Source: Flavobacterium sp. (lineage in GTDB: Bacteria > Bacteroidota > Bacteroidia > Flavobacteriales > Flavobacteriaceae). Taken from it: a stretch of 34,971 bases of DNA. The DNA lies in the NCBI GenBank assembly GCA_030145825.1, contig JAIXHM010000008.1, forward strand, positions 1 through 34,971. The letters run 5' to 3'. Below the pieces are notes generated by a model that saw only the letters and a program-made list of their open reading frames with translations, ran no database searches and was not told the DNA's origin. Shown one piece after another: positions 6,062-28,341 of this stretch (positions are counted from its first letter, which is position 1; each line of letters starts with the position of its first letter). A program made the position numbers and the translations under genes.

Positions 6062-6739
6062 ATGCGAATTGATATCATTACCGTTTTACCCGATTTATTA
6101 AGAAGTCCATTTGAAGGTTCGATTATGAAAAGAGCCATACAAAAAGGATTAGTGGAAGTACATTTTCACAATTTAAGAGATTACAGCACTAATAAACACA
6201 AAAATGTTGATGATTATCAATTTGGTGGTGGTGCTGGAATGGTGATGATGATAAAACCTATTGATTTATGCATTTCTAAATTGAAAAGTGAGCGTAAATA
6301 CGACGAGGTTATTTACATGACACCTGACGGCAAAACTTTAAACCAAAAAATGGCAAACTCTATGTCAATGCTTGAGAATATTATAATCTTGTGCGGACAT
6401 TATAAAGGAGTCGATCAACGCGTTCGTGACATGCACATTACTAAAGAAATTTCAATTGGTGATTATGTTTTAAGTGGAGGTGAAATTGGTGCTATTGTTT
6501 TTTGCGATGCTTTAATTCGATTAATTCCCGGAGTATTAAGTGATGAAACTTCTGCTTTAACAGATAGTTTTCAAGATAATTTACTATCACATCCTATTTA
6601 TACAAGACCTGCAGAATACAAAGGTTTAAAAGTACCTGATATTTTATTAAGTGGCAATTTTCCTGAAATTGAAAAATGGCGCGAACAAAAAGCTTATGAA
6701 CATACAAAAGAAAGAAGACCTGATTTATTAGAAGATTAA
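6062..6739 (+). CDS. trmD: tRNA (guanosine(37)-N1)-methyltransferase TrmD
   Basis: [25 protein letters not shown]...[11 protein letters not shown]...[13 protein letters not shown]...[11 protein letters not shown]. Confidence 0.96.
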
Positions 6740-6780
6740 TTCTGTAAATATAACATCAAGATCTCTTTCTTTTATCTTGC

Positions 6781-8724
6781 TTAAAATGAAAGTTTTACAA
6801 CTCTAGTATAATCTTTAGAAAATTTTCTTTTACCTGTTCCATTACATAATTTACAAATACTTTTTGTATATCCATCGCTAACTTTTTGTTTAGAAACCCA
6901 AGTCGCTTTATAATCTACAGTTTGGCCTTTAGACAAATATTTTAAGCCATCTTTATAAAATATTACTGGACTAATATAAGACGAATGGTTGTAAGTATTT
7001 TTAACATCTATAATTTTAAATTTTTCTGTTAAAACCTCAGGGTTACAATTAACCTCAACTTCTTTTTTACCCATTACCTTACAGTAAACTTCTGAAAAAT
7101 CTCTTGTTATGGTAGCATAAACATTTTTTTCATCAGTTTCAATTTTAAAACTTCTATCCTTCTCATTAACTGAATGTACAATCATCTCTCTTTTTAAAGT
7201 TTTTACATATACTTTATCACCAGGTTTTAGATAGTTTAAAGAAGTTGTTTCTGCAATTTGACCTAAATATTTATATTCAAATGGAACTTCTTTATTTACA
7301 AAATTAATTCCTTCCAGCGGCATTTTTTCCCATATTTCATTATCCTCTTTTTGAATTACATTATTTAGTCTTCTACCTTTTATTAATTCTCCATTTTCAA
7401 AAATTCCTATTTGAGCATCAATTTTCATATCTAAGGGACTATATCTATCATCAGATGTGGATGAATCAATAAAGTGTTTATTTTGAAACAAATGTGTTAT
7501 TTTACAACGATAACCTAATCCATTTAACTTCCCGTTTTTAAATTGTCCTACCTTTAAATACCTAACCTGTCCAGGGAATAGGCTATCAACAGCTTTCATT
7601 GAAATACCATAACCCGAATAACTTGGTGAAATTCCGCTGTCTACATTTGCAATACAATAAGGATTAACACCATCACTCAATACCATATAATTATTTTTTA
7701 AATATTTATAGGCATCTAGCTTGGGTGCTCGCATTTTAACTATCGTTTTATAAGATTGTCCAAGCTTATTTATTAAATCATCAATATTAGGTTTATCCGT
7801 TAAATTTGCAGGCACAGTCATTTCAATTTTACCATTGATAATTAGAGCCCAATAAGCTTTTTGGGTAGTATTGTCTTCCATAAAAACAACCGAACCATTA
7901 CCTAATTCTTTTATTGTAGGCAAGAAAAAACCAGTAAAAGTAATATTTTCAATAGAATAATAACTACCCGCTGCCGTATAACCAAAATATGAATCATTGT
8001 TTTTCAATGTTTGTAAAAATGGCTGTATTGCATCTGGTGAAGGCAATCTACCTGCTCCATAATTTGTATAATAAACAGGTAATCCATTAAAATTCTCTTT
8101 TTTTCCTTCATCTCCATGTTGTTTGTCGCTCGAAAAGCGTCTTACCAAACTCCCTTCTTTATCATATTCTTCATAAACTTGAACATATTTGTTAAGAGGA
8201 TCTTTAGTTATTTTCTGATATAATTTACCATTAGGATGAAATAGGCTACTTTCAACATCAACACTTTTTAAATTGTTTCCAGGATCTTTTATAAATATTT
8301 GTCCGTTTTTATGATAAATTGGTCCATCTGGCTCAACATAATAATATGCATTATTTGAACCGCTTTGCCATTTTACTCTTTTTATTATTTTGCCTTTACA
8401 ATAAACATCATAACCTAAATTAAACGAAATCTTATTATAACTTTTATTAAAGTCACAGTTTTGCCCATCGCATTTTGCACCATTAATTTTAGGCTTGTCC
8501 TTAAAGACATTATAATTGGGTTGATAACCTACTTGGAGTTCTCTACTATTAATGATAAGATTATCAATGTTTTTAGCATTATCTCCATTATCATATCTAT
8601 TAACAGTCAAAAAACTATAGTTTCCTTCTTGAGCTTGAAATTGAATCGTAAAAAGTGCAAATAAACTTAGACCCAATTTGTTTCTGAATAATATTTTTAT
8701 TAATTCTATTTTCATTGAAAGCAT
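6781..8724 (-). CDS. Large hypothetical secreted protein with C-terminal CxxCxGTG motif
   Basis: ~650-aa ORF; signal-like N-terminus; C-terminus CKLCNGTGKRKFSKDYTRVVKLSF; ATG at 8724 preferred over TTG at 8742. Confidence 0.6.
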   Translation of the reverse strand: MLSMKIELIKILFRNKLGLSLFALFTIQFQAQEGNYSFLTVNRYDNGDNAKNIDNLIINSRELQVGYQPNYNVFKDKPKINGAKCDGQNCDFNKSYNKISFNLGYDVYCKGKIIKRVKWQSGSNNAYYYVEPDGPIYHKNGQIFIKDPGNNLKSVDVESSLFHPNGKLYQKITKDPLNKYVQVYEEYDKEGSLVRRFSSDKQHGDEGKKENFNGLPVYYTNYGAGRLPSPDAIQPFLQTLKNNDSYFGYTAAGSYYSIENITFTGFFLPTIKELGNGSVVFMEDNTTQKAYWALIINGKIEMTVPANLTDKPNIDDLINKLGQSYKTIVKMRAPKLDAYKYLKNNYMVLSDGVNPYCIANVDSGISPSYSGYGISMKAVDSLFPGQVRYLKVGQFKNGKLNGLGYRCKITHLFQNKHFIDSSTSDDRYSPLDMKIDAQIGIFENGELIKGRRLNNVIQKEDNEIWEKMPLEGINFVNKEVPFEYKYLGQIAETTSLNYLKPGDKVYVKTLKREMIVHSVNEKDRSFKIETDEKNVYATITRDFSEVYCKVMGKKEVEVNCNPEVLTEKFKIIDVKNTYNHSSYISPVIFYKDGLKYLSKGQTVDYKATWVSKQKVSDGYTKSICKLCNGTGKRKFSKDYTRVVKLSF

Positions 8725-8838
8725 TTTAAATAATACATTCAAAACTAAGTATAGTAAAAAAAGTAGTCAATAAGGCAAATGCCCTATATTCAAATCAAAA
8801 AAAATCATACATTTATGTGTTACTAATATTTTTTTTAT

Positions 8839-8846
8839 TAATTTTG
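8839..8846 (+). promoter_or_regulatory. Bacteroidetes -7 element TAATTTTG upstream of rplS
   Basis: Matches TAnnTTTG; no clear -33 TTG at ideal spacing. Confidence 0.45.
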
Positions 8847-8854
8847 CACCCACA

Positions 8855-8901
8855 TTTGGATCAACCTCTGGCGAAAGACGTGTATGTTGTTCTGATTCAA
8901 A
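8855..8901 (+). ncRNA. Candidate L19 ribosomal-protein leader
   Basis: TTTGGATCA (8855-8863) pairs with TGATTCAAA (8893-8901), 9 bp with one G-U, enclosing a CTGGCGAAAGACG-type interior between promoter and rplS ATG. Confidence 0.6.
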
Positions 8902-8919
8902 CGTTTATTTTTAAAAACA

Positions 8920-9270
8920 ATGGCTAATTTAGTAGATTTCGTACAAAACGAATTTGTAGCAAAAAAAGATTTCCCTGAATTCAACTCAGGAGACACAATT
9001 ACTGTGTATTATGAAATTAAAGAGGGTGAAAAAACTAGAACTCAGTTCTTTAAAGGAGTTGTAATCCAAAAAAGAGGCGCTGGTTTAACTGAAACTTTCA
9101 CAATTCGTAAAATGTCTGGTTCTGTAGGTGTAGAGCGTATCTTCCCTGTAAACATGCCAGCTTTACAAAAAATCGAAGTTAACCAAAGAGGTAAAGTTCG
9201 TAGAGCTCGTATCTTCTACTTCAGAGAACTTACTGGTAAAAAAGCAAAAATTAAAGAAAGAAGAAGATAA
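8920..9270 (+). CDS. rplS: 50S ribosomal protein L19
   Basis: FVQNEFVAKKDFPEFNSGDTITVYYEIKEGEKTRTQFFKGVVIQKRGAGLTETFTIRKMSGSVGVERIFP. Confidence 0.97.
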   Translation: MANLVDFVQNEFVAKKDFPEFNSGDTITVYYEIKEGEKTRTQFFKGVVIQKRGAGLTETFTIRKMSGSVGVERIFPVNMPALQKIEVNQRGKVRRARIFYFRELTGKKAKIKERRR

Positions 9271-9291
9271 TCTTCCCTTTAAGAAACTAAT

Positions 9292-9323
9292 AAAAAAACC
9301 GCAACGCTATTGCGGTTTTTTTA
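9292..9323 (+). terminator. Rho-independent terminator after rplS
   Basis: AAAAAACCGCAA-CGCTA-TTGCGGTTTTTT. Confidence 0.88.
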
Positions 9324-9441
9324 TTTTAATAATTTTACACAATATAAATTATCAATTTCATAATATTTTAATCCTAAAATATTAAATCCCTAATTCAATC
9401 GTTTTCGCTCTTAACTGGTTTATATTTAGGCTCATTTTTCT

Positions 9442-9449
9442 TATATTTG
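9442..9449 (+). promoter_or_regulatory. Candidate -7 element TATATTTG for icd
   Basis: TAnnTTTG 50 bp upstream of ATG. Confidence 0.4.
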
Positions 9450-9493
9450 TCAGGTTTTCTCTGAAAATTTTAAACAAACAAACACTAAATTAA

Positions 9494-11722
<2,229 letters not shown>

Positions 11723-12442: not shown

Positions 12443-12565
12443 CTTCTAATTTCAACAAATCTATAGAAAAGCAATAATACAACTTATAAATTAACCAATG
12501 ATTAACAATTGTTGTGAAACAAATTATAAAAAAAATCGTCTAATTTGTATATCAAAAAATATACC

Positions 12566-14944
12566 ATGTTCACAAACATTAGGCAAGTTAGCGTTTTTTT
12601 AGTTTTTTTACTGAGTCTTATTGGATATTCACAAAAAAAATTCACAATCAGCGGAACTGTAAAAGACAGTTTATCTGGCGAAACGCTTATTGGGGTAACT
12701 ATTGCTATACTCGAACTTAAAACTGGAACTACAACTAATGAATATGGTTTTTATTCTTTAACACTTCCAAAAGGGGAGTATACTATTTGGGCAAGTTATA
12801 TAGGCTTTAGTGATTATGAACAAAAAATATCTTTAAATAGTAACCAAAAAATCAACATCAATTTAACAGAATCGCTACAAAACCTTGAAGAGGTTGTGGT
12901 AACCGATAATCCTAATAAAATAGTTCTTGATAAGCCTGAAATGAGTACACATAAAATTAATGCAACAACTATTAAAAAAATGCCCGCAGTATTAGGAGAA
13001 ACAGATTTGTTAAAATCAATTTTAACTTTACCAGGTGTAACTAATGCAGGTGAAGGGCAATCAGGCTTTAATGTTAGAGGTGGTGCTGCCGATCAAAATT
13101 TAGTTTTGTTAGACGAAGCTACACTTTACAATTCTTCCCATTTATTTGGTTTCTTTTCTGTTTTTAATACTGATGCCATTAAAGACATCAAATTGTATAA
13201 AGGTGGAATTTCCTCTCGTTTTGGAGGAAGAGTGGCTTCTGTTTTAGAAATTTATCAAAAAGACGGAAATAATACTGGTTTTCATGTAAATGGAGGAATT
13301 GGTGTTATTTCAAGTAGATTATTAGCAGAAGGACCCATTGTAAAAGATAAAGGTTCTTTTCTTTTTGCTGGAAGAAGTTCGTATGCACATCTATTTCTAA
13401 AATTAGCAGATAATGATAATTCGGCTTATTTCTATGATTTGAATACGAAATTGAGTTACCAACTCAACGCGAATAACAGTTTATTTCTATCTGGATATTT
13501 TGGTCGTGATGTTTTTAGCTTGAGTGATAGTTTTAAGAACACTTATGGAAATTCTGTCTTTAACTTGAGATGGAATCATTTGTATTCTGATAAATTATTT
13601 TCAAATCTTTCGCTTATTTACAGCGATTACTATTATGGTTTAACTCTGAATTTTGTTGGTTTCAATTGGGACAGCGGCATTAAAAATTATAACTTAAAAT
13701 ATGATTTCAAACACTACCTTTCCGATAAAACCAAACTGTTTTATGGTGTAAATGCCATTTATTATGATTTTAATCCTGGAAAAATTAATCCAACCGATGC
13801 TTCTTCTGGCATAAATCCTGATCAATTAGCTAAAAAATATGCTTTCGAACCTGCTTTTTACATTGATTCGGAACAAAAAATTTCAAATAAATTAAGCGTG
13901 AATTATGGTTTACGTTACAGTTTATTTTATCGCTTAGGAAATGAAGAAATTAATCTTTACGAAAATAATCAGGCTGTAGTTTTCAATAGTGACTATCAAA
14001 TTTATGAAAAAGCGACTCCAATTGGTACCAAAAAATATGGTAAAAACGATATTATTTCGCAATTTGGCAATTTAGAACCTCGGTTAGCATTAGCTTACAC
14101 CTTAAACGAAAAAAGCTCTATTAAAGCCAGTTATAATAGAATGTCTCAGTATCTACATTTAATTTCAAATACACAATCTCCTACTCCATTAGATGTTTGG
14201 ACACCAAGTGACGATTATTTGAAACCTCAAATTTTGGATCAAGTAGCGTTTGGATATTTTAGAAACTTTAAAAACGGTGCCTATTCCTTAGAAGCCGAAA
14301 CTTTCTTTAAAAAAGTTAAAAACCGATTGGATTATATTGATGGCGCCGATTTAATTGCTAATGATGATATTGAACAAGTAGTCCTTAAAGGAGAAGCAAG
14401 AGCTTATGGTTTAGAACTTCTAGTTCGAAAAAACAACGGAAAATTAACCGGATGGCTTTCATACACTTTATCCCGTTCAGAACAAAGAACACCAGGAAGA
14501 ACAGCCGAAGAAACTGGAATTAACAATGGAGAATGGTATAAAACAGGTTGGGACAAATTGCATAATCTTTCCGTAACTTCCATGTACCAATTGAACGAAA
14601 AATGGAGTTTTAGTAGCATTTTTACCTTACAAAGTGGGCAACCAGTTACCTATCCTAACGGACAATATCAATACCAAGGAATTACAGTTCCTACATATGG
14701 TTTACGTAATGAAAACCGACTACCAACATACCATCGTTTGGATGTTTCGGCTACTTTAGTTCCCGATAAAAATAAGAACAGAAGCTGGTATGGTGAATGG
14801 GTTTTTGGAATTTACAATATTTACAGTCGAAAAAACGCTGCCTCAATAAGTTTTAGACAAAACCAAGATTCAGGAAATAATGAAGCGGTTCGTCTTTCTA
14901 TTTTTGGAATTGTGCCAAGTGTCACCTATAATTTTAAATTTTAG
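12566..14944 (+). CDS. TonB-dependent receptor with N-terminal carboxypeptidase-regulatory-like domain
   Basis: FTISGTVKDSLSGETLIGVTI...plug GVTNAGEGQSGFNVRGGAADQNLVLLDEATLYN; beta-barrel C-terminus; ATG 12566 (track start is TTG). Confidence 0.92.
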   Translation: MFTNIRQVSVFLVFLLSLIGYSQKKFTISGTVKDSLSGETLIGVTIAILELKTGTTTNEYGFYSLTLPKGEYTIWASYIGFSDYEQKISLNSNQKININLTESLQNLEEVVVTDNPNKIVLDKPEMSTHKINATTIKKMPAVLGETDLLKSILTLPGVTNAGEGQSGFNVRGGAADQNLVLLDEATLYNSSHLFGFFSVFNTDAIKDIKLYKGGISSRFGGRVASVLEIYQKDGNNTGFHVNGGIGVISSRLLAEGPIVKDKGSFLFAGRSSYAHLFLKLADNDNSAYFYDLNTKLSYQLNANNSLFLSGYFGRDVFSLSDSFKNTYGNSVFNLRWNHLYSDKLFSNLSLIYSDYYYGLTLNFVGFNWDSGIKNYNLKYDFKHYLSDKTKLFYGVNAIYYDFNPGKINPTDASSGINPDQLAKKYAFEPAFYIDSEQKISNKLSVNYGLRYSLFYRLGNEEINLYENNQAVVFNSDYQIYEKATPIGTKKYGKNDIISQFGNLEPRLALAYTLNEKSSIKASYNRMSQYLHLISNTQSPTPLDVWTPSDDYLKPQILDQVAFGYFRNFKNGAYSLEAETFFKKVKNRLDYIDGADLIANDDIEQVVLKGEARAYGLELLVRKNNGKLTGWLSYTLSRSEQRTPGRTAEETGINNGEWYKTGWDKLHNLSVTSMYQLNEKWSFSSIFTLQSGQPVTYPNGQYQYQGITVPTYGLRNENRLPTYHRLDVSATLVPDKNKNRSWYGEWVFGIYNIYSRKNAASISFRQNQDSGNNEAVRLSIFGIVPSVTYNFKF

Positions 14945-14946
14945 TT

Positions 14947-15786
14947 ATGGTAAAGATTATACTAAAAATAACAACGTTTATCGTTCTTTTAATAGCTATG
15001 CTTTTCACACTTATTAGCTGTGAAGATGTTATTGATGTTGATTTAAGCACTGGCAAACCTAAATTAGTTATTGACGCTTCTTTAAAATGGCAAAAAGGAA
15101 CTGCTGGAAACGAACAAACTATCATTCTTTCTACAACAGCTGGTTTTTATGAGGAAAATGTTCCTGCAGCTACTGGCGCAACGGTTTTTGTTACTAATGG
15201 AAATAACGATGTATTTAATTTCATTGAAATCCCAAATACTGGTGAATATTTCTGTGATAATTTTGTCCCTGAAATTTACCAAAACTATACTTTAACTGTT
15301 ATTTATAACGGAGAAACTTATACAGCCACCGAAACTCTAATCGCAGTTCCTCCAATAAATGGTGTTGTACAAGACAACAATGGAGGATTTACAGGAAATC
15401 AAATTGAAGTTCGTTTCTTCTATGATGATATTCCTAATCTAGATAATTATTACTTAATACAGTTTAACACCAGTATTACTTTTTTACCGGAATATGATGT
15501 AATTAGTGATGAGTTTTTCCAAAACAATCAAATGTTTGGTTTATATACGAACGAAGATTTAAATGCTAATGACAACGTTACATTAACACTACAAGGAATT
15601 TCGGAATCCTATTACAATTATATGAACATTTTATTAGGAATTGCTGGCTCTAACGGAGGAAGTCCATTTCAAACACCACCCGCTACAGTAAGAGGAAACA
15701 TTGTTAACCAAACTAATTTTGATAATTATGCTTTAGGTTTTTTCAGATTATCAGAAATTGATAGTATGCAATATACGGTTGAATAA
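14947..15786 (+). CDS. DUF4249 family lipoprotein paired with the TonB receptor
   Basis: LISCEDVIDVDLSTGKPKLVIDASL...; 2 bp after the receptor stop. Confidence 0.85.
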   Translation: MVKIILKITTFIVLLIAMLFTLISCEDVIDVDLSTGKPKLVIDASLKWQKGTAGNEQTIILSTTAGFYEENVPAATGATVFVTNGNNDVFNFIEIPNTGEYFCDNFVPEIYQNYTLTVIYNGETYTATETLIAVPPINGVVQDNNGGFTGNQIEVRFFYDDIPNLDNYYLIQFNTSITFLPEYDVISDEFFQNNQMFGLYTNEDLNANDNVTLTLQGISESYYNYMNILLGIAGSNGGSPFQTPPATVRGNIVNQTNFDNYALGFFRLSEIDSMQYTVE

Positions 15787-15795
15787 TAAATTGTA

Positions 15796-15823
15796 AATTC
15801 GCAATTCGTAATTCGTAATTCAA
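15796..15823. repeat. Heptamer tract (AATTCGY)
   Basis: AATTCGC AATTCGT AATTCGT AATTCAA directly upstream of the ATG at 15825. Confidence 0.75.
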
Positions 15824-15824
15824 A

Positions 15825-16487
15825 ATGTCTTCACATCATATTGTTCGCGACGATCAAGAACCTGCTTTAATTATTGCTAACGGTGCTGCTTGCAGTAAAG
15901 AACTTATGGGACAACTTTTAGAGTGGTCGCCTTTTGTTGTAGTTCTAGATTCAGCAATAGATAGAGTTTTAAATTTAGGTATTAAAGTTGATGTTTTATT
16001 GGGTGATTTTGATCGCGATTTTAATCCCGATATTTATAAAGAATCTCAATTTCCGCTGGAAATTATTCATACACCCAATCAAGATAAAACTGATTTAGAA
16101 AAGGCATTCGATTTTTTAATAGAACGCGGACACCAAGCTGTAAATGTAATTTGGGCTACAGGAAAAAGAGCCGATCATACTATTACTAATATTACTAATA
16201 TCGTCCGTTATCGAAATATTCTAAAAATTGTTATTCTAGACGATCATTCCAAAATTTTTTTATTGCCCGAAAAGTTCCAAAAATGGTATCCTAAAAACAC
16301 GCCGCTTTCTCTTATTCCAATTGGAAAAGTTAGCGGAATTCATTCTCAAAATTTATTTTATCCATTACAAAATGATGAACTAACCATCGGTTACAGAACC
16401 GGAAGCAGTAATCACGTTTCTGAAGATGGAGTCGTCGTTATTGAACACCAAGAAGGCGATTTATTACTTATGGAATGTTGGGATTAA
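15825..16487 (+). CDS. Thiamine pyrophosphokinase
   Basis: ALIIANGAACS...FVVVLDSAIDRVLNLGIKVDVLLGDFDRD...DKTDLEKAFDFLI...TGKRADHTITNI. Confidence 0.9.
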   Translation: MSSHHIVRDDQEPALIIANGAACSKELMGQLLEWSPFVVVLDSAIDRVLNLGIKVDVLLGDFDRDFNPDIYKESQFPLEIIHTPNQDKTDLEKAFDFLIERGHQAVNVIWATGKRADHTITNITNIVRYRNILKIVILDDHSKIFLLPEKFQKWYPKNTPLSLIPIGKVSGIHSQNLFYPLQNDELTIGYRTGSSNHVSEDGVVVIEHQEGDLLLMECWD

Positions 16488-16520
16488 AAATTATAAATTT
16501 TTCAATTATACTACCTAAAA

Positions 16521-16567
16521 AACTTTCAATTCAAACTTCGTAACTTTACAACTTTAAACTTTGCAAC
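16521..16567. repeat. Degenerate 7/8-bp periodic tract upstream of uvrB
   Basis: ACTTCGTAACTTTACAACTTTAAACTTTGCAACTT immediately 5' of uvrB. Confidence 0.5.
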
Positions 16568-16576
16568 TTATAAAAA

Positions 16577-18562
16577 ATGAAATTCCAAGTAGTCTCTGAA
16601 TACAATCCTACAGGTGACCAACCTCAAGCCATAAAAAAACTTTCTGAAGGAATTTTGAATGAGGAAAAGTACCAAACTCTATTGGGAGTAACTGGTTCTG
16701 GAAAGACTTTTACAGTTGCTAATGTTATTCAAGAAGTACAGCGACCAACTTTAGTTTTGGCGCACAATAAAACATTGGCTGCCCAATTGTATTCGGAATT
16801 TAAGCAGTTTTTCCCCAATAATGCCGTGGAATATTTCGTTTCTTATTACGACTATTACCAACCCGAAGCTTATATTCCAGTTACTGGAACTTATATTGAA
16901 AAGGATTTGTCGATTAATGAAGAACTAGAAAAAATGCGTCTGAGTACTACTTCTGCCCTACTTTCGGGTCGAAGAGATGTTTTGGTTGTAGCTTCTGTTT
17001 CGTGTTTGTATGGTATTGGAAATCCTGTGGAGTTTCAAAAAAATGTCATTTCCATAGAAAACGGTCAAGAAATTTCGCGAACTAAATTATTACATCGCTT
17101 AGTTCAAAGTTTGTATGCCCGAACGGAAGCTGAATTCACTCCCGGTACTTTTAGAATTAAAGGTGATACAGTAGAAATTTTTCCAAGTTATGCTGATGAG
17201 CCTTTTCGAATTCACTTTTTTGGTGATGAAATTGAAGAAATTGAAGCATTTGATGCTAAAACTTCTCAAGTAATTGAACGCTACGAAAAACTAAATATTT
17301 ATCCGGCTAACATGTTCGTAACTTCTCCCGATGTTTTGCAAAATGCCATTTGGGAAATCCAACAAGACATGGTTAAACAAGTCGATTATTTTAAAGAAAT
17401 AGGAAAACATTTAGAAGCCAAACGGTTAGAAGAACGTACCAATTTTGATTTGGAAATGATTCGCGAATTGGGATATTGCTCAGGAATTGAAAATTATTCT
17501 CGTTATTTGGACGGAAGAGCTCCAGGAACACGACCATTCTGCTTATTAGATTATTTTCCTGATGATTATTTGATGGTTATCGATGAAAGTCACGTTACTA
17601 TATCTCAGGTTCATGCCATGTATGGTGGCGATAGAAGTCGAAAAGAAAACTTAGTGGAATATGGTTTCCGTTTGCCTGCTGCTATGGATAACCGTCCGTT
17701 GAAATTTGAAGAATTTGAAAGCTTACAAAATCAGGTTGTTTATGTTTCGGCAACTCCAGCTGATTACGAATTAAAAAAATCGGAAGGAATTTATGTAGAA
17801 CAAGTCATTCGTCCTACAGGATTATTGGATCCAATAATTGAAGTGCGTCCGAGTGCCAATCAAATTGATGATTTAATTGAAGAAATTCAATTGCGTTGTG
17901 AAGCTGACGAACGCGTTTTGGTGACCACTTTAACCAAACGTATGGCGGAAGAATTAGCGAAATATTTAACCAAAGTTGCTATTCGTTGTCGCTATGTTCA
18001 TAGTGATATTGACACTTTGGAACGCGTTGAAATTATGCAAGATTTACGCAAAGGTTTATTTGATGTTTTAATTGGCGTTAACTTATTGCGTGAAGGTTTA
18101 GATTTACCCGAAGTTTCTTTGGTAGCCATTTTAGATGCTGATAAAGAAGGTTTCCTTCGCAGTCATCGTTCGTTAACACAAACTGTTGGTCGTGCGGCTC
18201 GTAACGTAAACGGAAAAGCCATCATGTATGCAGATAAAATTACCGATTCGATGCAACGAACTATTGATGAAACCAATTATCGCAGAGAAAAGCAAATGAA
18301 TTATAACAAGGAACATAATTTGGTTCCTAAAGCATTGAATAAATCCATTGAAAATGCGTTGACCAAAAATCAAGTTTCTAATTATGGATACGATGCTCCA
18401 AAAATAGCAGCCGAACCAGAAAACGAATATTTATCGAAAACTGAAATTGAAAAACGTATACGTGAGAAACGTAAGGCAATGGAAAAAGCGGCAAAAGATT
18501 TAGACTTTATGCAAGCCGCAAAATTGCGTGACGAGATTAAAGCCTTACAAGAAAAAATGTAG
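16577..18562 (+). CDS. uvrB: Excinuclease ABC subunit UvrB
   Basis: GVTGSGKTFTVANVI, YYDYYQPEAYIP, C-terminal UVR motif. Confidence 0.98.
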   Translation: MKFQVVSEYNPTGDQPQAIKKLSEGILNEEKYQTLLGVTGSGKTFTVANVIQEVQRPTLVLAHNKTLAAQLYSEFKQFFPNNAVEYFVSYYDYYQPEAYIPVTGTYIEKDLSINEELEKMRLSTTSALLSGRRDVLVVASVSCLYGIGNPVEFQKNVISIENGQEISRTKLLHRLVQSLYARTEAEFTPGTFRIKGDTVEIFPSYADEPFRIHFFGDEIEEIEAFDAKTSQVIERYEKLNIYPANMFVTSPDVLQNAIWEIQQDMVKQVDYFKEIGKHLEAKRLEERTNFDLEMIRELGYCSGIENYSRYLDGRAPGTRPFCLLDYFPDDYLMVIDESHVTISQVHAMYGGDRSRKENLVEYGFRLPAAMDNRPLKFEEFESLQNQVVYVSATPADYELKKSEGIYVEQVIRPTGLLDPIIEVRPSANQIDDLIEEIQLRCEADERVLVTTLTKRMAEELAKYLTKVAIRCRYVHSDIDTLERVEIMQDLRKGLFDVLIGVNLLREGLDLPEVSLVAILDADKEGFLRSHRSLTQTVGRAARNVNGKAIMYADKITDSMQRTIDETNYRREKQMNYNKEHNLVPKALNKSIENALTKNQVSNYGYDAPKIAAEPENEYLSKTEIEKRIREKRKAMEKAAKDLDFMQAAKLRDEIKALQEKM

Positions 18563-24982: not shown

Positions 24983-26098
24983 ATGAAACTAGGCGTAAAA
25001 ATAGCGATTGGATTGGCTTCTGTAACCGCATTAGGAATGGTTACAGGAGTTATTCCTAATCCGTTTGATGTAAATTTGAATAATGATGTGCCACTTCATT
25101 TGCAACACGAAATGAAAGTTTCTTGGCATTTTGCTGGAAAACCGCAAGATATTCCCATTTTAGATCAAGTAACTCCATTTGACGATTCAAAATATTTTGA
25201 TTTAAAACCAAGCATTCAAGCCAATCCTTTACTAGCTAACGGAATCTTTAAGTTTAATTATGAAATTGAGCAATTCTCAAAATTAGGTGAACATTCTGGA
25301 ACATTTCGATATAAAGTAAATAGTAATGATAACTCAATGTATGTTCACGGAGTGGATATAACGAATAATCCTTTGTTTCTTCCTTTAAAAAACAATCCGT
25401 TTTTAGCCAATTATAGTATCGATTTTCTTATTCGAAATGCAAAAGGCGATTGGTTAGTGTATGTAAACCATTCACAACAAGGGAAAGTTTGTATTGAAGC
25501 GCCATCTGGATTGAACATTTCCGAAGTTATTACCGAAACGCATTTGAAAAATTTAGAAGTATTAAATTCTACCAAAGCAAATTCTAATTATACCTATAGC
25601 AATAACAATTTAGAACCGTATACGGGTAAATTCATCAACGAAAAAGGCGTTGAAAAAACCATTACCTTTTGGTTTGCTAAACAAGAAGCACAAATTCCTA
25701 CTGCTGTTCCTATTATGGGATTTGGCGTTGGAATATTTAAAAATGTAGTAGAGAAAAAACAACAATTTTTAGCCGTTACAGAAATCGACAACAATGTTTT
25801 AAAACTAATTGATTTACAAACCATTGACGAATGGGGAATTAATACGAATGCATATAAAGTCATTAAAATGGATTACCATTTACCAAGTGGCCAAAACCGA
25901 GTTGATGATATTGTAAGTTGGTTAAAAGACAAACAAAACGAAATCGCAGTACTAAGAGAAAAACGAAAACAATGTCCGCCACACCAATCAGGTTCAGCTT
26001 GTAGGAAAGAATATGAACGACAAATAAAAGAAGTTCAAAAAGAAATAGAAATGAGAGCGGAAGAACTCGCAGGTAGCATGATGATTCCTATTAAATAA
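24983..26098 (+). CDS. Hypothetical exported/membrane-anchored protein
   Basis: 371-aa ORF 5 bp after the OmpA gene; N-terminal hydrophobic segment. Confidence 0.7.
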   Translation: MKLGVKIAIGLASVTALGMVTGVIPNPFDVNLNNDVPLHLQHEMKVSWHFAGKPQDIPILDQVTPFDDSKYFDLKPSIQANPLLANGIFKFNYEIEQFSKLGEHSGTFRYKVNSNDNSMYVHGVDITNNPLFLPLKNNPFLANYSIDFLIRNAKGDWLVYVNHSQQGKVCIEAPSGLNISEVITETHLKNLEVLNSTKANSNYTYSNNNLEPYTGKFINEKGVEKTITFWFAKQEAQIPTAVPIMGFGVGIFKNVVEKKQQFLAVTEIDNNVLKLIDLQTIDEWGINTNAYKVIKMDYHLPSGQNRVDDIVSWLKDKQNEIAVLREKRKQCPPHQSGSACRKEYERQIKEVQKEIEMRAEELAGSMMIPIK

Positions 26099-26130
26099 AA
26101 AAATCCCAAGCTAACGCTTGGGATTTTTAG
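26093..26130 (+). terminator. Rho-independent terminator
   Basis: AAATCCCAAGC-TAAC-GCTTGGGATTTTT. Confidence 0.88.
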
Positions 26131-26186
26131 TTTACAAGTTAACATTAAAACTAATGTGTTGTATTTAATTTGTAAGATATTTTTAA

Positions 26187-26194
26187 TATATTTG
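26187..26194 (+). promoter_or_regulatory. Candidate -7 element TATATTTG for the NACHT gene
   Basis: TAnnTTTG match; no -33 TTG at ideal spacing; ACATTA-AAAC-TAATGT inverted repeat at 26142-26157. Confidence 0.35.
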
Positions 26195-26281
26195 AAAACG
26201 TTAGTTTATATAATTCGGTGAATATGCGATACTAAATAATGCATATAAACAAGTTAGATGCTAAACAAAAAACTTAATAAC

Positions 26282-28096
26282 ATGAACGAAATACTTTTAA
26301 AAACAATCATTGCAGAATTTTCAAAACAATCTACAACGATTTTGAAAGACATAAAAGGAGAAACAAATCATTTTTTTAATGATGGATTGAGCAACTATCT
26401 GGAAAAACAAAGGGCAAAGTTTGTCAATATTAAAACATTATTACATCGAACTACTCCAGTTCCATTTTATGATATTTATCTTCCAACAAGATTATCTTGC
26501 AGAAATAAAAGTATTGAAACCAGCTCAATCAATAGAGTTTTTTGGGAAACTCAATTTGTCACAATTATTGGAGATGCTGGAAGTGGAAAAAGCACATTAA
26601 TAAAACATTTGTTTTTAAACTCAATATCTGAAAAATTTTGTATTCCAATTTTAATTGAATTAAGATATTTAAACGATTATAAGGGTTCAATTGAAGATTA
26701 CATCAGAGAGAATATTTTTGAAAACAAATTATCACCAACTGAAAAAATTCTTAATAGATTACTAGAAAATGGGAAATTCGTATTTTTTCTTGATGGCTAT
26801 GACGAAATCAAATCCGATTCTAAAAAATTTGTTGTTGAAAAATTAAACGCATTTATTGACAAATACAGACTAAACCGTTTTTTGCTTACTTCTCGTCCAT
26901 ATTCAAACATTGAACTTTTACCACTTTTCCATAATTATAGAATAGAAAAATTAAATGATGTTGAAATTAAAAAATTTATTTCAATTCAAAAAATTGAAAG
27001 CGAGCTGGCTCAAAAAATAATCAAATCCGTTTCTGAAAATAAAGTTCTATATTTAAAAAGTTATTTAACAAATCCATTACTTCTCTCTCTTTACATATTA
27101 ACATTTTCAACAAATTCATCAATTCCAGATAAAAAATATATATTTTATAGAAGGGTTTTAGATGTATTGTTTAAGGAAAATGATAGCATTACAAAAATAG
27201 GTTATGAACGTGAATTAAAAACTAAGCTAAGTCAAGAAGGATTCGAAGAAATTCTAAAAATATTCTCTTTCATTAGTTATTTTGATAGTGAATATGATTT
27301 TACTAAAGATTATCTATTTGATTTATTAAATAAAATTAAGGAGAAACGTACTTCTTTTAATTTTGACAATAATGATTTAATTGAAGACTTAAAATCCGCA
27401 ATAGCGCTTTGGACAGAAGATAGTGGTGTTTACTCTTTTGCACATCGATCGATGCAAGAATATTTTGCCGCACTTTATATCAAAGGAATAAATGACAATA
27501 AAAAAGATGCCTATAAAAAAATTCATAGTAAACTTTTTGAAAATAGAAGAAATAGAGAAACTGCTAATTTTTTATCATTATGTGATGAAATGGATAGTTA
27601 TAATTACAAAAAATATATGTTATTACCAACATTAAAGTCAATCAATAAAAAGATTAACCGTCAAGATGACAGAACAATAATAAAATCTTGTTTATTACTT
27701 TTTTTTAGTAATATAGAATTTGAAATATCTAGTACAGAATCAAGAATGGTAAGTCTTAGTGGTGTAAAAGGAAGTTCTAAATATTTATTTGCAGTCGAAA
27801 AATTTGAAGGTGTTTTTGTGAATGAAATTTTTAAACGAGGTAGAACTAAAAGTATCTTTGATAAAGTCAAGAAAAATAAAGTTAAAGTTACTTCTCGGAA
27901 AAGTGATTCTGATAAAGATATTTTTACAATTAATTTCAAAAATCTAGACGAAAATGATTTAGAATTACTTTCAACAACAGAACTATTAAAATTCTCAAAA
28001 CAATTTAGTGAACATGTAATTACAAGTATTCAAGAAATTGAAACTTTTCTAAAAGAAAGTAATGAATATGAAAAAAATCTTATTGAATTGATATAG
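26282..28096 (+). CDS. NACHT-domain STAND NTPase (candidate anti-phage bNACHT)
   Basis: Walker A GDAGSGKST; Walker B FVFFLDGYDEI; RFLLTSRPYSN; NPLLLSLYILTF; winged-helix-like FAHRSMQEYFAALYI; ATG also at 26258. Confidence 0.88.
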   Translation: MNEILLKTIIAEFSKQSTTILKDIKGETNHFFNDGLSNYLEKQRAKFVNIKTLLHRTTPVPFYDIYLPTRLSCRNKSIETSSINRVFWETQFVTIIGDAGSGKSTLIKHLFLNSISEKFCIPILIELRYLNDYKGSIEDYIRENIFENKLSPTEKILNRLLENGKFVFFLDGYDEIKSDSKKFVVEKLNAFIDKYRLNRFLLTSRPYSNIELLPLFHNYRIEKLNDVEIKKFISIQKIESELAQKIIKSVSENKVLYLKSYLTNPLLLSLYILTFSTNSSIPDKKYIFYRRVLDVLFKENDSITKIGYERELKTKLSQEGFEEILKIFSFISYFDSEYDFTKDYLFDLLNKIKEKRTSFNFDNNDLIEDLKSAIALWTEDSGVYSFAHRSMQEYFAALYIKGINDNKKDAYKKIHSKLFENRRNRETANFLSLCDEMDSYNYKKYMLLPTLKSINKKINRQDDRTIIKSCLLLFFSNIEFEISSTESRMVSLSGVKGSSKYLFAVEKFEGVFVNEIFKRGRTKSIFDKVKKNKVKVTSRKSDSDKDIFTINFKNLDENDLELLSTTELLKFSKQFSEHVITSIQEIETFLKESNEYEKNLIELI

Positions 28097-28310
28097 GGCA
28101 AACAACTAAATGACTTACTGTAACCAATAGCGGTTTTAAAAATTTCGAGGATAATTTTAGAAGATTGGACATCAAAATCTTTACACCAATTTAAGCTTTT
28201 TTCCTTCAAAATTTTGGGTATATAAGTAAACATCAGTTACAAAAAACTCAGTCCCTGCAACAAGTATCGAAACCTAAGAAAATTTTTTAGCTGCTCACTA
28301 TTTTAAAATA

Positions 28311-28341
28311 AAAAAATCCCGAGCTCACACTCGGGATTTTT
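28311..28341. terminator. Bidirectional terminator of valS
   Basis: AAAATCCCGAG-CTCACA-CTCGGGATTTT. Confidence 0.88.

Follow-up and report, generated by a model that had tools for sequence, protein, structure and literature searches.

The bNACHT12 protein (WP_021519735.1) belongs to clade 14 and is a SNaCT-bearing protein without discernible effector, which protects against both DNA and RNA phages, MS2 among them (PMC12169576). We analysed a stretch of 34,971 nucleotides of Flavobacterium sp. (assembly GCA_030145825.1, contig JAIXHM010000008.1, positions 1 to 34,971; hereafter the window), in which an earlier note had proposed a lone NACHT/STAND NTPase gene as a candidate single-gene anti-phage system. 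The gene is a real ORF of 612 codons at positions 26258-28096 of the forward strand; the interval 26131-28310 given in the earlier note is that between two terminator-like hairpins. As detailed below, this gene probably encodes a STAND ATPase of the bNACHT type that acts as a single-gene anti-phage system, from the short SNaCT-type branch devoid of an enzyme domain to which bNACHT12 also belongs.

All the motifs quoted in the earlier note were located in the 612-aa protein. Within the NACHT nucleotide-binding domain (residues 98-245, positions 26549-26992, delimited from the Pfam NACHT match and the invariant columns) are found the Walker A motif GDAGSGKST (residues 105-113, 26570-26596), the Walker B motif FLDGYDEI (residues 177-184, 26786-26809) and the sensor-1 motif LTSRP (residues 210-214, 26885-26899). 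They are followed by NPLLLSLY (residues 272-279) and FAHRSMQEYFAALYI (residues 394-408). The HD1 and winged-helix region (residues 246-412, 26993-27493) was recognised from NPLLLS, FYRRV and HRSMQEYFAA, from the AlphaFold2 model and from Foldseek, and the remaining residues 413-612 (27494-28093) comprise, according to AlphaFold2 and profiles, HD2-like helices, then a fast-evolving alpha/beta part and a long helix at the end. The Pfam NACHT match (4.2e-13) exceeds the curated cut-off and is the sole NACHT match of the 2.83-Mb genome, and PHROG 18297 covers residues 8-596 (E 4.1e-86); judged from these two values, the NACHT assignment should be regarded as far above chance. The AlphaFold2 model of the protein (pLDDT 83.6) had NLRC4, NOD2 and NLRP3 as its top matches among solved structures when compared with the PDB by Foldseek. 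Nothing useful was obtained with phmmer against the PDB sequences, and the fold search in BFVD returned a single NLR-like siphovirus protein with a poor fit. An alternative start at ATG 26282 would yield a protein of 604 aa whose N-terminus has the length found in its nearest relatives, with 99 residues ahead of GxGKS compared with 96-101 in the Colwellia, Aliarcobacter and L102 relatives, and may be the true start.

A single-sequence search of the genome contigs and viral contigs yielded no relatives, whereas the alignment-based search did detect them. The set used here was formed by the best 80 of 237 genome loci together with 53 viral-contig loci. The resulting subfamily consists of proteins of about 570-630 aa, mainly from Bacteroidota, sharing 36-49% identity in the matched part. 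Among the loci listed, the nearest kin are a Colwellia (49%) and an Aliarcobacter (47%) protein, which form one clade with the present protein (SH-aLRT 99). This clade points to a transfer across phyla; both records are MAGs, for either of which a binning error is possible, less so for both. In the tree, the present protein lies in a Bacteroidota-rich branch and the enterobacterial bNACHT12 branch is separate. The bNACHT12 protein aligns with residues 46-457 of the present protein at 27% identity (E 2e-38); this limited identity and the end of the alignment at residue 457 count against the defence reading. Resting on homology to the tested bNACHT12 and on the distribution of the family, this reading is nonetheless well supported.

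The N-terminal region (residues 1-97, 26258-26548, delimited by AlphaFold2 and profile comparison) is predicted to contain two helices (residues 2-28 and 30-56), followed by a linker that contains an HR and a DIYxP motif. Its length of about 97 aa corrects the 70-80 aa proposed earlier. No recognised enzyme domain is present in residues 1-97, and no match was found ahead of residue 67 in Pfam, NCBIfam or PADLOC. The region is not the unfamiliar effector suggested in the earlier note, since it is common to the whole family: the pre-NACHT profile of the subfamily matched that of the bNACHT12 branch with a probability of 90.5% and those of other branches with 93-98%, and two proteins, L147 and L143, carry an Mrr-like domain, weak and under the Pfam cut-off, fused ahead of this same region. 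Because the profiles link all branches and the Mrr-like fusions precede the common region, the N-terminus is the family's own short region, bNACHT12 included, and not an effector peculiar to the present protein. A similarly long N-terminal extension, with no meaningful Pfam match, is found in L160. We considered the helices as membrane inserters and dropped this idea: their hydrophobic moment is somewhat above that of shuffled sequences (0.51 vs 0.41, sd 0.09) but their hydrophobicity is not raised (0.34 vs 0.29, sd 0.15). A tentative view, to which we give clearly less than even chances, is that the family-wide helical region of about 60-100 residues could itself be the output device, on membranes or via a recruited host protein. 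With the same reserve, this non-enzymatic region might act upon formation of a NACHT ring, being retained even behind a fused Mrr-like nuclease. If so, these proteins would be one-gene NLRs of minimal build, whose effector is not an enzyme.

The C-termini of the subfamily match Pfam SNaCT9 in 10 and SNaCT8 in 8 out of 35 proteins (18/35 together), and those of other branches match SNaCT5 or SNaCT7. Neither the present protein nor bNACHT12 has a direct Pfam SNaCT match. Taken together with its two nearest kin, the C-terminus of the present protein could be aligned with the SNaCT8-type set over 161 columns with 97.5% probability; taken alone, the residues from 458 on did not significantly match the profile of any group, which counts against the reading. 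We also compared the predicted C-terminal elements with those of L195, a proxy of bNACHT12 with which it shares 42% identity (AlphaFold2 pLDDT 80.9). The same order was observed in both: 4-5 helices, a strand pair, 2 helices, short strands, a helix and a long final helix. This likeness is one of predicted secondary structure, the mid-region of both models is of low confidence, and the L195 alignment took in five subfamily members. The C-terminus thus seems to be of the SNaCT type, too divergent for the Pfam models, and the order of elements supports this assignment without proving it. The novel C-terminal sensor suggested in the earlier note would accordingly be of a type already described, though past the reach of Pfam, and residues 413-612 can be annotated as a putative divergent SNaCT-type sensor. 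This region evolves fast: in pairs of relatives with NACHT domains 81-91% identical, the part aligned to residues 481-572 is 36-67% identical, as expected for a sensor engaged in an arms race. The protein exemplifies a C-terminal region whose evolution greatly outpaces that of the other parts.

The order of the three parts (N-terminal region, NACHT, C-terminal region), seen in the AlphaFold2 model and in the alignment, is consistent with the following scheme, in which the two ends would have the roles of output and sensing. At rest, the NACHT domain would be nucleotide-bound and held closed by the C-terminal domain (residues ~430-612). A phage product, or a phage-induced change, would engage the C-terminal domain, and nucleotide exchange would then lead the monomers to oligomerise via NACHT-WHD. 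The N-terminal helices (residues 1-57), once clustered, would cause growth arrest or cell killing, directly or via a host protein. The switch step is proposed because of the motif set and the known mechanism of STAND proteins; we infer the sensing and output steps.

The NACHT gene is separated from the hypothetical gene upstream by a hairpin with a T-run (26099-26128), which is terminator-like and was scored on the minus strand. A second hairpin with T-runs, terminator-like both ways, lies at 28312-28341 between the NACHT gene and valS. The NACHT gene is therefore probably a separate transcription unit. As to the orientation, for which the earlier note had set the gene apart from both of its neighbours, it is convergent with valS but has the same direction as the upstream OmpA-like and hypothetical genes. 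Its G+C content is 25-26%, compared with 33% for the upstream gene and 35% for valS; the PDZ gene past valS is also low. None of the scanned genes of the window could be recognised as a known defence gene, a point against the defence reading. Elsewhere in the window, an ORF of 653 aa lies at positions 6781-8742 of the minus strand, for which Pfam gave no match at 1e-5.

Around 38 subfamily loci, setting aside duplicate contigs, no gene recurs at a fixed place as an operon partner would. This bears on the proposal that the protein is a STAND regulator of host physiology, involved in transcription or signalling as MalT is and gained by horizontal transfer. STAND proteins do include regulators, and no effector enzyme can be recognised in the present protein; however, the latter has no DNA-binding domain and no conserved neighbour as a possible regulatory target, and the patchy, phage-borne distribution and fast-evolving C-terminus of the family speak against a regulator of this kind. 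We consider a regulatory role very unlikely. The earlier note had named clear orthology to a non-defence STAND protein as a possible refutation of the defence reading; none to a known protein of this sort was found.

To the right of the gene, the valS-DUF1573 block is kept in 20 relatives. The sequence past the valS 3' end varies between these genomes: the NACHT gene is found there in none of the 20, and one relative carries a KAP-type NTPase. To the left, a relative genome (G121) has an upstream block about 90% identical as far as position 26198, and the intergenic similarity stops at TATAAACAAGTTAG (26244-26257, forward strand), a sequence present once per genome which comprises the last common bases and marks the left junction of the acquired segment. 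In G121 it is followed by a DUF5655 gene and an attC-like element. Since the gene content of relatives differs at this place and the G121 similarity ends at TATAAACAAGTTAG, the junction of the NACHT gene looks like an exchange spot. When positions 8504-9898 of the corresponding G121 locus (L220, contig C18) are compared with 26098-26258 of the window, the upstream genes and the spacer are alike and a DUF5655/HSDR_N-like gene follows. The attC-like element of G121 (TGCTAAC...GTTAGCA) folds strongly and occurs at 5 places in that genome, whose site is possibly one of cassette exchange in Flavobacterium. A search with the same attC-like sequence, allowing up to 3 mismatches, gave no match in the present genome, and the DNA 3' of the NACHT gene showed no strong fold. 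An integron-cassette origin of the present copy was dropped on these two counts.

Matches with E <= 1e-30 were detected in 6 of 398 genomes of the order (about 1.5%) and in 6 of 396 genomes of the phylum sample. Core-genome conservation at the locus, which the earlier note regarded as a possible refutation, was looked for and not found among the relatives compared. The relatives are carried by prophages, a tailless Vibrio phage and plasmids, one plasmid copy adjoining a CBASS operon. The relatives found by tblastn comprise a protein of a 14.8-kb tailless Vibrio phage, which bears the depositors' label NLR_like_bNACHT01, and others, at varied distances, on 233 plasmids. In the PM2-like tailless Vibrio phage 10N.286.49.B11_PE003, a lone bNACHT-type gene (12520-14310) ends the genome. 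In a Spirosoma prophage (L109/L164, 5941-7827), a subfamily member lies antisense and moron-like among tape-measure-like and tail-region genes. Two other neighbourhoods contain a Schlafen group 3-like helicase gene followed by a related NACHT gene, near possible conjugative-element genes (L065 of G291, 6276-9829), and Septu-like AAA_21 ATPase and HNH nuclease genes about 3 kb from an Mrr-like-fused NACHT gene (L066 of G144, 14635-17755).

Relatives borne by plasmids, prophages or a tailless phage would have a use for an anti-rival system, and the same STAND mechanism could be directed against plasmids or superinfection for the benefit of the carrier prophage or plasmid. We hold such a conflict system with another target to be rather improbable: like many of its relatives, the present gene stands alone on the chromosome with no adjoining mobile element, and bNACHT02 and bNACHT12 act on phages in tests (PMC12169576). 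Several copies detected in the order and phylum searches are interrupted by stops. In the same genus, a 44%-identical NACHT homologue adjoining the nuo operon (L064 of G309, 8134-10860) is in two parts, with an IS982-like transposase gene and its matching terminal repeats inserted between them. Given such broken copies among relatives, one could ask whether the present gene is a decaying non-functional remnant. This is the least probable of the alternatives weighed here, as its frame is unbroken over 612 codons and all the catalytic motifs and subfamily-invariant residues are kept. For the bNACHT-type reading that we favour, hallmarks of a mobile defence gene are present: its occurrence is patchy, its nearest kin are in other phyla, its C-terminus evolves fast, it has no partner gene, and a relative carries another gene at the same junction. 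The proposal of a lone, single-gene anti-phage candidate is strengthened by the kinship to bNACHT12, the phage- and plasmid-borne relatives, the patchiness in the order and the lack of a recurring partner. How proteins without an enzyme stop phages is directly testable here, with one small ORF, no partner and an N-terminus of about 60-100 residues.

No named system was found for the present protein with the PADLOC (2023 models) and NCBIfam collections, so that the PADLOC check proposed in the earlier note gave no fitting model, a further point against the defence reading. An Avs/AVAST identity was discarded, there being no PADLOC Avs match and 612 aa compared with the large effector-STAND-TPR build; so was EruA (NCBIfam NF058535), which scores 32.8 bits in the NACHT core only, compared with the more than 1000 bits along about 1318 positions that are needed. 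In Flavobacterium pectinovorum (L147/L004) and in L143, the Mrr-like-fused NACHT proteins share the pre-NACHT helices and the NACHT core with the present protein, but begin with the weak Mrr/PD-(D/E)XK-like domain that it does not have. The Colwellia (L082) and Aliarcobacter (L086) proteins have the same architecture and likewise no Pfam SNaCT match; they come from other phyla and their residues 481-572 are just 9% identical. The SNaCT8 and SNaCT9 proteins of Bacteroidota (such as L102, L104, L083 and L092) are lone and of the same length, with 36-44% identity over the N-terminus, NACHT and WHD, but Pfam PF22714 or PF22715 recognises their C-termini and not that of the present protein. The Klebsiella plasmid protein WP_015632533.1, which we take to be bNACHT01, is likewise encoded by a lone gene and has 609 aa, with 28.5% identity over residues 46-475; it differs in its C-terminal sequence and in its location, on a conjugative plasmid next to a CBASS operon.

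Finally, bNACHT12 and the present protein are both encoded by lone genes and both have 612 aa, the same order of parts, a homologous N-terminal region and a homologous NACHT-WHD-HD core. They lie on separate branches of the tree, their C-termini cannot be aligned past residue 457, and their hosts are Enterobacteriaceae (an E. coli plasmid) and Bacteroidota, respectively; of the two, bNACHT12 is the one with demonstrated anti-phage activity. The central NACHT module and the tripartite make-up place the present protein among the bNACHT proteins, and its anti-phage activity would follow from the homology to bNACHT12. It is an undescribed member of an already known kind, the single-gene bNACHT proteins, with a C-terminal variant not modelled by Pfam, and through it the single-gene NLR-like defence proteins gain a Bacteroidota/Colwellia/Aliarcobacter branch.
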